Shown one piece after another: positions 1-6,749 of a stretch of DNA of 64,000 nt. This DNA comes from Acidobacteriota bacterium (GTDB lineage Bacteria; Acidobacteriota; Thermoanaerobaculia; Multivoradales; Multivoraceae): contig JAJCXN010000039.1 in NCBI GenBank assembly GCA_029263415.1, positions 248,001 to 312,000 of the forward strand. Direction: 5' to 3'. Position numbers and translations under genes: made by a program. Every line of letters starts with the position of its first letter. Positions within the stretch are counted from its first letter, which is position 1. The notes beneath the pieces were generated by a model, which worked only from the letters and a program-made list of their open reading frames with translations, had not been told where the DNA came from and searched no databases.

Positions 1-141
1 AAGGGGTACTGGATTGTCGACGGAGTGCCTATTGACTATGAAGCGTACGTCAAGAAGAGGGCGGACGAGATCAAGGCGCTGCAGAACGAGCTTCGCAAAA
101 AAATGGATGCAAACGCTCGGAAGCTTCGCGACGCTGGCTAG
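1..141 (+). CDS. C-terminal end of an unidentified protein (partial)
   Basis: The first frame is open from base 1 and stops at TAG 139-141, giving 46 residues that begin KGYWIVDGVP and end in a Lys/Arg/Glu-rich, probably helical tail (ELRKKMDANARKLRDAG). Third codon positions are mostly G or C, as in the neighbouring genes, so this is the end of a real gene that starts outside the window. I do not recognise the family from this fragment. A hairpin 28 bases downstream looks like its terminator. Confidence 0.6.
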   Translation, partial: KGYWIVDGVPIDYEAYVKKRADEIKALQNELRKKMDANARKLRDAG

Positions 142-382: not shown

Positions 383-1774
383 GTGGCAGGTATTCAACGG
401 TACGGCAGCTACGTTCCCTTTTGTCGGTTGCAACGGTCGGCGATTGGCGCAGGCAAGGGTGAGCGCGCCGCGGCCAGCTATGACGAAGATGCTGTGTCGA
501 TGGCAGTCGAGGCCTCGCGCGAAGCAATGCGTGCCTTCGAAGGTGGGATCGATCGCTTGGTCTTCGCAACCACTAGTGCGCCCTACCTCGAGAAGCTGAA
601 CGCCACCACAATCCATGCCGCCCTAGATCTTGACTCTGCGGTGAGTGCTTCAGATATGACGACTTCCAGCCGCTCAGGCGTGGTCGCCTTGAGCGACGCG
701 TTGGACGCGTCGCATGCCGGTCGTACCACGTTGGTGGCGGCTTCGGATGTGGTGGTGGGAGCGCCGGGCGGACCCCGGGAGTCGCAGGGCGGAGACGCTG
801 CAGCGACGGTCGTGGTGGGTCCTGGAGATGGAATCGCCAAGCTGATTGGGCGCGCGTCGCGCACTGAGGAAGTGCTCGACGTCTGGCGCTCTGAAGGTAT
901 GGCGTTCGCTAGCCAGTGGGAAGAGCGCTTTGGAGCTGAGGTCTTTGTGCCGATGTTCGCGTCAACCATCCAAGCAGCGCTCGCCGATGCCGGAATCAGC
1001 GCCGACGATCTTGATGCAGCGCTTATCGATAGCACCAATGCGCGCGTTAACCGCGCAATCCCCAAGGCGACCGGGATCGCAGCTGAGAAGTTTTTGGGAG
1101 CTGCGGAGTTTGCTGGTTCAGTGGGTCGCGCCGGGGCGGCAAATGCGGCCTTGCTGCTCGCCAACGCCTTGGATCAAGCCAAGCCGGGCGACAAGATCCT
1201 GGTGGGAGTCGCAGCGGACGGAGCGGATGTGCTGATCTTCGAGGCGACCGATGCACTTGCTGATGCGCGACCGAAGCACTCGGTTGCTGATTGGCTGGCT
1301 TCGAAGAAAGACGACTTGGCCTACACCGCTTATCTCAAATGGCGCGGAGTATTGCCGTTCGAGCCACCACGCCGGCCAGACCCAGATCGTCCGGCCTCAC
1401 CGCCAATGATGCGCGCGGAGCGGTGGAAGTACGCCTTTGTGGGCTCGAAGTGCACCAAGTGTTCGGCGGTCAACCTGCCACCTCAACGAGTGTGTGTGGC
1501 GTGTCAGGCAGTTGATGAGATGGAGCCAGTTCAGTGTGCGGATGCACAGTGCCGAGTCGCGACATACACCATCGACCGGCTCGCCTATTCGCTGCAACCG
1601 CCTGTCGTTGCTGCGGTGGTAGACTTTTCTGAAGGTGGCCGCCTCAATTGCCAGCTCACCGATGTCGACCCCGAGAGCGTCGGCATTGGCGATGAACTGG
1701 AGATGACCTTTCGCCGTTTCTTCGTGGCGGGAGGCGTGCACAACTATTTTTGGAAGGCGCGGCCCCAGCGCTAG
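383..1774 (+). CDS. HMG-CoA-synthase-like protein fused to a Zn-ribbon/OB-fold (DUF35) domain
   Basis: The protein has 463 residues from the GTG at 383, which has GGAGGAG six bases upstream. A GTG at 368 is in frame, but the ribosome-binding sequence would then lie inside the gene. The first ~340 residues have the thiolase-superfamily fold of 3-hydroxy-3-methylglutaryl-CoA synthases. The last ~120 carry a rubredoxin-like Zn ribbon (CTKC then CVAC) followed by an acyl-CoA-binding OB fold. In archaea these domains are separate proteins in a complex with thiolase; here they are fused and a thiolase gene follows 95 bases later. The segment aligning with the catalytic Cys (normally like ACKAGT) reads SSRSGV, and the catalytic-His segment reads IDSTN. 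The N-terminal domain is therefore probably not a standard HMG-CoA synthase and may be a structural or CoA-channelling partner of the thiolase. Confidence 0.75.
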   Translation: MAGIQRYGSYVPFCRLQRSAIGAGKGERAAASYDEDAVSMAVEASREAMRAFEGGIDRLVFATTSAPYLEKLNATTIHAALDLDSAVSASDMTTSSRSGVVALSDALDASHAGRTTLVAASDVVVGAPGGPRESQGGDAAATVVVGPGDGIAKLIGRASRTEEVLDVWRSEGMAFASQWEERFGAEVFVPMFASTIQAALADAGISADDLDAALIDSTNARVNRAIPKATGIAAEKFLGAAEFAGSVGRAGAANAALLLANALDQAKPGDKILVGVAADGADVLIFEATDALADARPKHSVADWLASKKDDLAYTAYLKWRGVLPFEPPRRPDPDRPASPPMMRAERWKYAFVGSKCTKCSAVNLPPQRVCVACQAVDEMEPVQCADAQCRVATYTIDRLAYSLQPPVVAAVVDFSEGGRLNCQLTDVDPESVGIGDELEMTFRRFFVAGGVHNYFWKARPQR

Positions 1775-1869
1775 CGCCTCGTGTCGAAAGCGACCTCAAG
1801 ATCAAAGGCTCCACGGACGGAATAGCATCGACATCGCGGCTTAGCATCGAGAACGAGAAGGAGAGAGCA

Positions 1870-3048
1870 ATGGGCAGCAAGGGAATTTGTGATCGCGTAG
1901 CCATCGTCGGGATGGGTTGCACCAAATTCGGTGAGCACTGGGGCAAGAGCGTTAGCGATCTCTTGGTCGACGCAGCGCACGATGCCTACCATTCCGCGGG
2001 TGTCGAGGCCGAGCAGATCGATGCGTATTGGCTGGGCACTCTCTCCTCTGGCGTTTCAGGTCTGACAGCGGCTGAACCGCTCAAGATCCAGTACAAGCCA
2101 GTCACTCATGTCGAGAACATGTGCGCTACCGGTAGCGAGGCCATTCGCAATGCCGCCTATGCGGTGGCTAGTGGTGCCTATGACGTGGCCATGGCGATTG
2201 GCGTCGAAAAACTCAAAGACTCGGGCTTCTCAGGCCTTGTGGGCAGCGGCGGCGTTGCCAGTGATGGCACCGAAGCAGGCATGACTGCGCCCGCGAATTT
2301 CTCGCTGCTCGCTCCAGCGTATGCGGAAAAGTACGGTGTCGATATGGAGACGCTGCGCGACGTTCTCTCTCGGATCGCCTACAAGAACCACTACAACGGT
2401 GCGCGTAACGAGAAGGCGCAGTTCCAGCGCGAAGTGTCGATGGAAAAGATCAACGCTTCGCCCAAAGTGGCGGGCATGCTCGGCATTATGGACTGCTCCG
2501 GTGTCTCCGATGGTGCAGCAGCAGCCGTTTTAGTGCGGGCTGAAGACGCTCACAAGTACACCGACAATCCCATCTTCATCAAAGGGCTGTCGTTTGTTGC
2601 TGGTCCTGCCGAGGGCACCAAGCGGCAAGAGTACGACTTCACAACGTTCCCAGAAGTGGTGGCGAGCGCTCACGACGCGTATGCACAGGCTGGGATCAAG
2701 GATGCTCGCGAAGAGATCAGCATGGCAGAGGTGCATGATTGCTTTACACCCACGGAGTTGGTCTTGATGGAGGATCTCGGATTCTCCGAGCGTGGACAGG
2801 CTTGGAAGGACACCGTCGACGGCCGCTTCGATCTCAAGGGCGAACAGCCGATCAATCCTGACGGTGGCCTCAAGAGCTTCGGCCATCCGATTGGCGCCAG
2901 TGGTCTGCGCATGATGTACGAGATGTGGCTTCAACTACGCGGCGAGGCCGGCGAACGCCAGATCGAGAATCCCAAGCTGGGCCTGACCCACAACTTGGGT
3001 GGGCAGCCTGGTCGTTGTGTGAGCTTTGTCTCGGTCGTCGGCCGCTAG
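1870..3048 (+). CDS. Thiolase (acetyl-CoA acetyltransferase, SCP2/archaeal type)
   Basis: The 392-residue protein starts at ATG 1870 behind GAGAAGGAGAGAG; the frame is open further upstream, but only this ATG has a good ribosome-binding site. The acylated Cys lies in ENMCATGSEA, the catalytic His in SFGHPIGASG, and the end has the LGGQPGRCVSFV signature of SCP2-type thiolases. It would condense or cleave acyl-CoA thioesters in the cytosol. It directly follows the HMG-CoA-synthase/DUF35 fusion, repeating the archaeal thiolase-HMGCS-DUF35 gene set, so the two products probably form one complex. Whether it degrades or builds chains cannot be told from the sequence. Confidence 0.88.
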   Translation: MGSKGICDRVAIVGMGCTKFGEHWGKSVSDLLVDAAHDAYHSAGVEAEQIDAYWLGTLSSGVSGLTAAEPLKIQYKPVTHVENMCATGSEAIRNAAYAVASGAYDVAMAIGVEKLKDSGFSGLVGSGGVASDGTEAGMTAPANFSLLAPAYAEKYGVDMETLRDVLSRIAYKNHYNGARNEKAQFQREVSMEKINASPKVAGMLGIMDCSGVSDGAAAAVLVRAEDAHKYTDNPIFIKGLSFVAGPAEGTKRQEYDFTTFPEVVASAHDAYAQAGIKDAREEISMAEVHDCFTPTELVLMEDLGFSERGQAWKDTVDGRFDLKGEQPINPDGGLKSFGHPIGASGLRMMYEMWLQLRGEAGERQIENPKLGLTHNLGGQPGRCVSFVSVVGR

Positions 3049-3073: not shown

Positions 3074-3493
3074 TTGGTCGATCCAAACGAGGAGCGTCGC
3101 CTGTTCGAACAGGCGCTCGCTGATCTCGACTCGGCAAGCTTGGCAAAGCTGGTTCGCGCGAAGGGTGGAGCTTCATCAGGCCTGTCGTCTGAGCAAGTGG
3201 CACGTCCTCGGTCTCGTCGACTCGATAAGAGACGCAAGACCGCGGAGCCAGATGCGGTGATCGATCTGCACGGCCTCGACCGCCGTGCCGCGATCGAGCA
3301 GGTTCGCGAGTTTATCGTCGCTCACCGATCGAGCGAGCTGCTGCTGGTGGTCCATGGCAAAGGGCGTGGCATCCTGCAGCAGAGGATCAGCGGGTTCCTC
3401 AGTGCCCAAGCGTGTGTTGTCGAGCACGTGGCTGCGCCCCAGCGCCTTGGTGGCACTGGAGCGCGTCTGGTGCGACTGCGCCGAAATCGATAG
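3074..3493 (+). CDS. Smr-domain protein
   Basis: The 139-residue protein starts at TTG 3074, 25 bases after the thiolase gene. The first ~60 residues are charged and probably flexible. The rest is a Smr domain, as found at the end of MutS2, with the DLHGL motif and the VVHGKGRG motif. Smr domains are nucleases or nucleic-acid-binding modules. This is a stand-alone Smr protein with no MutS part, probably acting in DNA or ribosome rescue. The gene ends 26 bases before the convergent peptidase gene. The TTG start is the weakest part of the call. Confidence 0.8.
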   Translation: MVDPNEERRLFEQALADLDSASLAKLVRAKGGASSGLSSEQVARPRSRRLDKRRKTAEPDAVIDLHGLDRRAAIEQVREFIVAHRSSELLLVVHGKGRGILQQRISGFLSAQACVVEHVAAPQRLGGTGARLVRLRRNR

Positions 3494-5801: not shown

Positions 5802-6749
5802 GTGAAGAATCGCCTAAGACCTGATGGTCCGGGTGCGCCCTCGCTGCCCGCTACCGAATCGCGGCAGGCTAGGTCGCCGCGACGCACCAGACTACTTGCG
5901 TTGTTGGCGTTGGCTGTGTTCGTGTTGATCACCTACGGCACAGCGCCTTTCATTGCCGCGTCCTTTCCCGACGCCGATCTATCCGGACCACTGGGTGAGG
6001 AATCAGTGATGCCTGGCGTGGTCGCGGCAGTCGAACTCTACGCCGTTCTGTGCGCTAGCGCGTTGGTACCAGCGTTCCTCTGGTTGGCGTGGCTGGGTCG
6101 TCACCCGGGTCCTCTCGGAGCGATTGGTTTCGCTGGGCCGCCGCAGGTCCGCCAATGGCTGTTGGGTGGGTTGGCGGGCGCTGCGTTGATCAGCCTATTG
6201 TGTGCGCTGCTAGCGGGCGCTGGTTGGTATCGCGTTGCCCTCGTTGGATTCGACCCAGTGGTGATTGTCGTCATCTTGGGGTTGGTGCTGGCTGCGTTGT
6301 ATGAGGAGTTGCTGTTTCGCGGCTTCGGGTTCTGGGCGATCGAGACTGTGGCCGGGTCGGTGGCGGCGGTGGTGGTGAGCTCCGTGCTCTTTGCTCTTGC
6401 GCACGCAGATAACTCGGGGGCGCACTGGCTCGGCATGGTCAACACTGCTTTGGCCGGGGTTCTGCTCGGCGTTCTACGTTGGCGATCGAGTTCGCTATGG
6501 ACGGCGTGGGGGGTTCATCTCGGCTGGAACGCGGCGCTGGGCCTGGTGTTTGGCGCCAAGACCAGTGGTTTTGCGTTTGCGGGACGACTCTTGGAGTCGG
6601 AAGTGTCCTCGTCAGGCGCCAGGCATGTTGCGATGGCGGGAGGTGCCTATGGTCCCGAAGGTAGCCTGCTCTTGACCCCGATGCTTGCGGTCGGGATCAT
6701 CTGGATGGTGAGGCGGCCGAGCTCTTTGCCTGCGGGATCCGCTGCCTAG
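5802..6749 (+). CDS. CPBP-family intramembrane metalloprotease
   Basis: The 315-residue polytopic membrane protein starts at GTG 5802 behind AGGGAGAG. After a charged N-terminus come about eight hydrophobic segments. The CPBP (Abi/Rce1-like) motifs are all present: EELLFR near residues 168-173, FALAH with His 201, and a final HLGWN with His 239. Related proteases cleave CAAX-like or bacteriocin substrates within the membrane; the substrate here is unknown. The gene converges on the hydrolase downstream, and the two stop codons share a CTAG at 6746-6749. Confidence 0.87.
   Translation: MKNRLRPDGPGAPSLPATESRQARSPRRTRLLALLALAVFVLITYGTAPFIAASFPDADLSGPLGEESVMPGVVAAVELYAVLCASALVPAFLWLAWLGRHPGPLGAIGFAGPPQVRQWLLGGLAGAALISLLCALLAGAGWYRVALVGFDPVVIVVILGLVLAALYEELLFRGFGFWAIETVAGSVAAVVVSSVLFALAHADNSGAHWLGMVNTALAGVLLGVLRWRSSSLWTAWGVHLGWNAALGLVFGAKTSGFAFAGRLLESEVSSSGARHVAMAGGAYGPEGSLLLTPMLAVGIIWMVRRPSSLPAGSAA

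Follow-up and report, generated by a model that had tools for sequence, protein, structure and literature searches.

This locus raises the question of what a protein built like a 3-hydroxy-3-methylglutaryl-coenzyme A (HMG-CoA) synthase does when the catalytic residues of a synthase are replaced. It lies in the stretch of 64,000 nucleotides analysed here, referred to as the window (positions 248,001 to 312,000 of contig JAJCXN010000039.1, assembly GCA_029263415.1), from an Acidobacteriota bacterium of the family Multivoraceae with a genome of 6.9 Mb in 60 contigs. Two genes are in question, one coding for an HMG-CoA-synthase-like domain fused to a DUF35 domain, the other for a thiolase. The loss of HMG-CoA synthase catalysis in the fusion is strongly supported by the residues found at the aligned active-site positions, and the two proteins probably form one complex in which only the thiolase would be catalytic, the fusion being the non-catalytic partner of a coenzyme A (CoA)-dependent thiolase. 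The complex itself, its contact with CoA, the direction of the reaction and the substrate are what we infer from the comparisons described below. The features of the pair are as follows.

383..1774, forward strand: gene of the fusion protein, 463 amino acids, HMG-CoA-synthase-like domain plus DUF35 (zinc ribbon, OB fold), recognised by its open reading frame, ribosome site, Pfam, NCBIfam and fold match.
383..1372, forward strand: HMG-CoA-synthase-like domain, residues ~1-330 (end approximate), lacking the catalytic Glu, Cys and His, from the alignment to 6esq_I and the family columns.
572..574, forward strand: codon of Thr64, in the place of catalytic Glu82 (alignment column).
668..670, forward strand: codon of Ser96, in the place of catalytic Cys114 (alignment column).
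671..673, forward strand: codon of Arg97, Arg in 113/113 fusions and Lys in 33/33 unfused relatives (alignment column).
1028..1030, forward strand: codon of Asp216, in the place of catalytic His238 (alignment column).
1412..1771, forward strand: DUF35 part, residues ~344-463, zinc ribbon with Cys357, 360, 371 and 374 followed by an OB fold (Pfam PF12172 and PF01796, match to 6esq_E, Cys columns).
1870..3048, forward strand: thiolase of the PRK06157 family, 392 amino acids, with Cys85, HDCF at 289-292 and His339 (NCBIfam over cut-off, nearest solved chain 6esq_A, motif columns).

A first-pass annotation had placed the pair at 383-3048, and these limits hold when judged by the reading frames and the ribosome sites. 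The fusion gene starts with GTG at 383, preceded by the ribosome site GGAGGAGA, and its stop codon ends at 1774; the thiolase frame is open from a TTG at 1750, its likely start is the ATG at 1870 behind GAGAAGGAGAG, and it ends at 3048. The description of the first gene as a fusion of an HMG-CoA-synthase-like domain with DUF35, next to a thiolase, was likewise borne out by Pfam and NCBIfam. In the C-terminal part of the fusion, OB_ChsH2_C (E 1.6e-11) and zf-ChsH2 (E 3e-6) were recognised, and the Pfam cut-offs of DUF35 (PF01796/PF12172) were passed with 44.4 against 27.1 and 27.4 against 23.2 bits. The N-terminal part matched the HMG-CoA synthase family PRK04262 with 144 bits, below the cut-off of 244, and the score of the fusion against TIGR00748 was 94.5 bits, below the cut-off of 353. 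The thiolase scored 598 bits against PRK06157 and thus exceeded the cut-off of 403.

When the fusion was aligned to the synthase of M. thermolithotrophicus (6esq_I), S-S-R-S-G was found under A-C-K-A-G and I-D-S-T-N under F-H-Q-P-N. The exchange of Cys for Ser and of His for Asp in the active-site segments, which the first-pass annotation had read from the letters, therefore agrees with the alignment; the replacement of catalytic Glu82 by Thr64 is a third loss, absent from that annotation. Set against the archaeal enzyme, the fusion in the window thus has Thr, Ser and Asp where the synthase has its catalytic Glu, Cys and His.

To see this in its family context, relatives of the fusion were compared, among them 80 loci, the best 80 of 581 confirmed places, found by two peptide patterns; one pattern includes the Thr found at the Glu column, which biases the Glu counts among these loci. 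Loci with a match of fewer than 400 query residues were dropped, and the 126 remaining rows gave 113 distinct fusions, as judged by their last 440 residues. As unfused controls we used 32 loci of the same phylum, which end at most 60 amino acids after the match and are therefore unfused, together with one solved chain (6esq). Because an intact query was used to find the controls, they illustrate the appearance of intact relatives and say nothing of their frequency.

With the window included, Glu was present at its column in 0/113 distinct fusions, Cys in 0/113 and His in 3/113, and the 45 distinct fusions found without a peptide pattern also gave Glu 0, Cys 0 and His 3. All 33 unfused archaeal-type synthases have Glu, Cys and His, with Lys after the Cys. 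Since both Cys and Glu are absent from every one of the 113 distinct relatives, the loss of these residues is not a matter of chance. The Cys column of the fusions holds V (26), S (25), T (25), L (12), P (8), I (5), Q (5), A (3), G (2) and R (1), with one gap, and the following residue is invariably Arg (113/113); at the His column Asp is commonest (58/113). In two PhlA fragments, the Glu, Cys and His columns are occupied by Cys, Gly and Gln. Further residues that are invariant in synthases are altered in the fusions, and Gly303 and Ser304 are deleted in 111/113.

The claim of the first-pass annotation that catalysis is lost stands, as Glu, Cys and His are all replaced and no column of the synthase-like domain holds a conserved Cys (at most 29/113 in any column). 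We also looked for a conserved His elsewhere: near residue 254 His occurs in 84/113 fusions, at a non-catalytic column where the window has Asn. Two expectations of the same annotation did not hold. Ser is not conserved in place of Cys among the homologues (25/113) and therefore is no substitute nucleophile; we rejected this candidate, many members having V, L, P, I or Q at that column. The degeneration, too, is not a feature of this locus but the state of the family: the columns of the distinct fusions confirmed that the predicted loss of catalysis extends to the whole sampled clade. Local decay at the window locus was rejected, the loss being family-wide and the domain under purifying selection.

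In the thiolase, Cys85, HDCF and His339, which we take to be the catalytic residues by analogy with other thiolases, are kept in 91/91 distinct sequences, a count from which 15 loci were dropped for want of a full-length thiolase match in the accepted place. The catalytic Cys and His of a thiolase are also named in the part of PMC6392133 available to us. Among solved chains, the archaeal acetoacetyl-CoA thiolase 6esq_A is nearest (E 1.9e-58) and PhlC is much farther (E 6.6e-32 for 9skh_I). The YDCY motif of the Sal/Ltp2 aldolases was not seen in any of the 91 distinct thiolases, all of which have HDCF.

The fusion was found in 24 of the 396 genomes of the phylum and the thiolase in the same 24, at cut-offs that we chose ourselves (E <= 1e-30 for the fusion, E <= 1e-80 for the thiolase); in 22 of the 24 the two genes are neighbours. 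These genomes are not independent, because they represent 8 genera and 15 of them belong to the family of the window. Among 113 loci that are distinct by DNA, with the window excluded (the agreement with the number of distinct fusions is by chance), the thiolase begins at most 200 nucleotides downstream of the fusion in 106. The seven exceptions comprise two genomes considered below (G068 and G305), a locus whose thiolase lies elsewhere in the genome (79% identity, ~37 kb away if C1 is the same record), one with the thiolase 1.26 kb downstream, one at a contig end that could not be judged, and two haloarchaeal loci in which a thiolase is annotated directly upstream. The position of the synthase-like domain beside the thiolase, which had been noticed at the outset, is borne out by gene order and co-occurrence, and a partnership of the two proteins is well supported by this genomic evidence. 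An additional gene between fusion and thiolase, which some loci seemed to have, was rejected: gaps of ~2.6 kb were produced by long stop-to-stop frames overlapping the fusion. We also noticed that one genome (G011) carries two fusion–thiolase pairs (L020/L148 and L041/L163), the second fusion being 57% identical to that of the window, and that another (G018) has two fusions.

In a tree of 45 fusions, 12 synthases and 2 PhlA sequences, hand-picked from 148 rows (59/148) and calculated with four diagnostic columns omitted, the fusions stood on one side of a branch supported at 100/97, the synthases on another (100/97) and PhlA on a third (100/100). The root was placed by the synthases only, with no outgroup farther than these. 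The fusions came from Acidobacteriota, Pseudomonadota, Myxococcota, Actinomycetota, Bacillota, Binatota, Rokuibacteriota and haloarchaea, and they did not group with PhlA. A single history of fusion and residue loss is the simplest reading of this tree. The mean ratio of nonsynonymous to synonymous substitution rates (dN/dS), calculated for 55 pairs from 11 loci of the family of the window, was 0.154 for the synthase-like domain and 0.099 for DUF35. Across 88 loci, mean pairwise identity was 47.8% for the synthase-like domain, 60.6% for DUF35 and 71.0% for the thiolase; the thiolase was more identical than the synthase-like domain in 3828/3828 pairs, making the latter the fastest-changing part. 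Annotations of the relatives vary between OB-fold proteins, acyl carrier protein synthase III and HMG-CoA synthase.

A single-chain AlphaFold model of the fusion, built from 35 sequences, was confident, with a mean predicted local distance difference test score of 90.8 and a predicted template modelling score of 0.92. Its best fold match was chain I of 6ESQ (Z 43.9, root-mean-square deviation 1.9 over 323 residues), followed by CsATase 9SKH (Z 42.3), PhlA 5MG5 (Z 41.2) and MucA 9VBO (Z 39.1), whereas other HMG-CoA synthases ranked lower (Z 36.5 and below). The top matches are all A-type subunits of three-part complexes, and the predicted model has the thiolase-superfamily fold of the archaeal HMG-CoA synthase. 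Likeness of a predicted fold by itself shows no function. The DUF35 part was matched to 6esq_E by sequence. As a separate observation on this part, all four zinc-ribbon Cys are present in 97/113 fusions and at least one is absent in 16/113; in the OB part, Arg444, Tyr455 and Lys458 occur in 113/113.

All three parts of the archaeal thiolase/HMG-CoA synthase/DUF35 complex (6ESQ) thus have a counterpart in the window pair, the thiolase by sequence (6esq_A), the synthase-like domain by fold (6esq_I) and DUF35 by its match to 6esq_E. The window differs in that synthase and DUF35 form one chain and Glu82, Cys114 and the His are replaced. As described in the available part of PMC6392133, CoA binds in the archaeal complex at the interface of all three proteins. 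The closest worked-out case is PhlABC (PpATase, PDB 5M3K and 5MG5; CsATase 9SKH), which, in the available parts of the sources, likewise combines a synthase-like subunit without Cys and Glu, a DUF35 protein and a thiolase with Cys. In PhlA, which by analogy is the known counterpart of the altered domain, the key Cys and Glu are missing, DUF35 is represented by PhlB, and the substrate is contacted by PhlC residues only, yet activity requires the whole operon (PMC6392133, in part). PhlA has already been called inactive, and DUF35 fusions to the thiolase superfamily already listed, in the accessible text of PMC2954200. PhlABC differs from the window pair in having three separate subunits, Cys, Gly and Gln at the lost positions and a separate clade, and its acyl transfer proceeds without added CoA, according to the same part of PMC6392133. 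MucABC (9VBO) resembles the window fusion by fold, and MucA is without Cys and Glu in a pairwise alignment. The ChsH2-Ltp2 and Shy-Sal aldolases and the benzoylsuccinyl-CoA thiolase BbsAB share with the window pair a DUF35 part and a thiolase-fold enzyme of acyl-CoA catabolism, but the parts of the literature available to us describe none of them as having a synthase-like domain; Sal has YDCY (PMC12329534, in part), whereas the window thiolase has HDCF.

It seems likely that the fusion would supply two non-catalytic parts in one chain, DUF35 and the altered synthase-like domain. DUF35 would bridge the thiolase and the synthase-like domain, as in the archaeal complex and PhlABC. The synthase-like domain, which the first-pass annotation had proposed as a CoA carrier partner, would round off the assembly and may also complete the CoA- or acyl-binding surface. 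The likely reaction would be the cleavage of a beta-ketoacyl-CoA by thiolysis, in many relatives within acyl-CoA catabolic clusters; thiolytic cleavage is likely because the thiolase keeps the residues of CoA-dependent thiolases, and its nearness to the archaeal acetoacetyl-CoA thiolase together with the kept HDCF favours CoA-dependent thiolysis. In each of the 14 plasmid records examined, from 50 that hold a relative, acyl-CoA dehydrogenases, hydratases, CoA ligases or CoA transferases were found near the fusion (14/14); the hosts were Rhodococcus, Novosphingobium, Sphingobium, Sphingomonas, Sphingopyxis, Azoarcus, Variovorax, Paraburkholderia, Streptomyces and two haloarchaea. At least two of six catabolic families were found in 17/49 chromosomal loci of at least 14 kb, the comparison stretches being four pieces of the genome of the window.

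Several observations weigh against a non-catalytic fusion that serves a catabolic thiolase. Fusion and thiolase lie on different contigs in G068 and G305, and they are not neighbours in L069. None of the six catabolic families was found in 20 of the 49 chromosomal loci, nor around the window pair itself within 12 kb before or 16 kb after it, and one acyl-CoA dehydrogenase match lies between 19 and 35 kb; a catabolic cluster around this pair was accordingly rejected. The catalytic His is kept in 3/113 fusions. In addition, the CoA region of PhlABC is unlike that of the archaeal complex (PMC6392133, in part).

The need of the host for HMG-CoA was also considered. An HMG-CoA reductase is present in its genome and no match to Dxr was found there, so isoprenoids are most likely made via mevalonate and an HMG-CoA synthase is needed. 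A second synthase-like gene in this genome passes the PF01154 cut-off and, read by eye, shows GTETAVD, KHACYGG and CFHVPFPK, in which Glu, Cys and His are all present; its score against TIGR01835 is 237 bits, below the cut-off of 360. Judged by these motifs, this gene is likely, rather than proven, to be the HMG-CoA synthase of the host. Two loci of the same order (L025 and L026) have unfused archaeal-type synthases with intact Glu, Cys and His, and a DUF35-like match elsewhere on the contig.

These results bear on four other explanations. That the fusion is still an HMG-CoA synthase, working with Ser or with a displaced Cys or His, would suit the need of the host and the annotation of some relatives as HMG-CoA synthase; it is very improbable, given the unconserved Ser, the missing Glu, the lack of any conserved Cys column and the second gene with all three motifs. 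A decaying pseudogene, retained by chance beside the thiolase, could explain why the active site is lost in the least conserved part of the pair. We regard this as extremely improbable, because the selection and co-occurrence results contradict it: the frame is open in 113 distinct sequences, the mean dN/dS is low at the value given above, and the gene occurs in the same 24/396 genomes as the thiolase.

An acyltransferase like PhlABC, in which the thiolase would serve biosynthesis by transferring an acetyl group to a carbon acceptor, with the altered domain as a scaffold, has the same set of parts and the same kind of partner without Cys and Glu (as in PhlABC and, as pairwise alignment showed, MucA), but we consider it unlikely: the thiolase is closer to the archaeal acetoacetyl-CoA thiolase than to the CsATase chain, it has HDCF throughout, the annotated neighbourhoods are catabolic and the fusion clade is separate from PhlA. 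It is just as doubtful that the altered domain has acquired new chemistry, for instance that a second acyl-CoA is bound or turned over via Arg97 and Asp216. Purifying selection on the domain, the invariant Arg97 and the prevalence of Asp at the His column would be in line with this; on the other hand, the Cys column is highly variable, as is the His column, and the domain changes fastest of all parts of the pair. Moreover, active synthases and PhlA have Lys at the counterpart of Arg97, so this residue need not be catalytic. We therefore favour the fusion as a non-catalytic partner of the thiolase.

Another locus that may suggest a role for the pair is plasmid p3 of Novosphingobium sp. ES2-1, whose fusion has Thr and Leu at the Glu and Cys columns and whose thiolase passes the PRK06157 cut-off (415 against 403 bits). 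The order of its genes, cytochrome P450, DUF35 protein, lipid-transfer protein, hydratases, thiolase, 'HMG-CoA synthase' and dehydrogenases, is like that of the edc cluster for estrogen catabolism in Novosphingobium (Caenibius) tardaugens, where the 'HMG-CoA synthase' EGO55_13555 adjoins the thiolase EGO55_13550 (PMC7793797). According to the part of that paper available to us, Ibero et al. (2020) could not assign EGO55_13555 to a step and stated that a condensation makes no sense in the pathway; in their HMG-CoA synthase tree it fell into a different group, and they already suggested that it has no condensation activity. The likeness to ES2-1 p3 is a close match of gene order, and by this analogy it suggests that EGO55_13555 may be the partner of EGO55_13550. 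In the accessible part of a 2025 review of the estrogen pathway (PMC12507874), thiolases are named and EGO55_13555 is not.

More tentatively, and as a possibility about which we are rather doubtful, one clade of several bacterial phyla and haloarchaea may have converted HMG-CoA synthase into a thiolase's non-catalytic half. Its emptied pocket would then form, together with DUF35, an acyl or CoA site that lets the thiolase cleave bulky beta-ketoacyl-CoAs derived from steroids or aromatics, including the unassigned estrogen step. If so, databases that call some members of the clade HMG-CoA synthase misplace mevalonate chemistry. Apart from this possibility, a sampled clade that has no catalytic residues and is tied to one thiolase family is given a testable function, that of a thiolase subunit, which would correct pathway predictions. 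This also offers an answer for the gene that Ibero et al. (2020; PMC7793797) could not place in estrogen catabolism, and it adds a clade, separate from PhlA, in which a synthase fold seems to have been retained solely for partnering.

The genes around the pair were also inspected by eye. Upstream of the fusion lies a gene that ends at 141 (window 1-141; L128 10741-12141) and looks like a LIV-type (branched-chain-amino-acid) periplasmic binding protein; in Streptomyces cathayae an ABC transporter with a substrate-binding protein likewise lies directly before the fusion. Downstream, the translation of frame 3074-3493 resembles a small Smr-domain protein and that of frame 5802-6749 a CAAX-type membrane protease.

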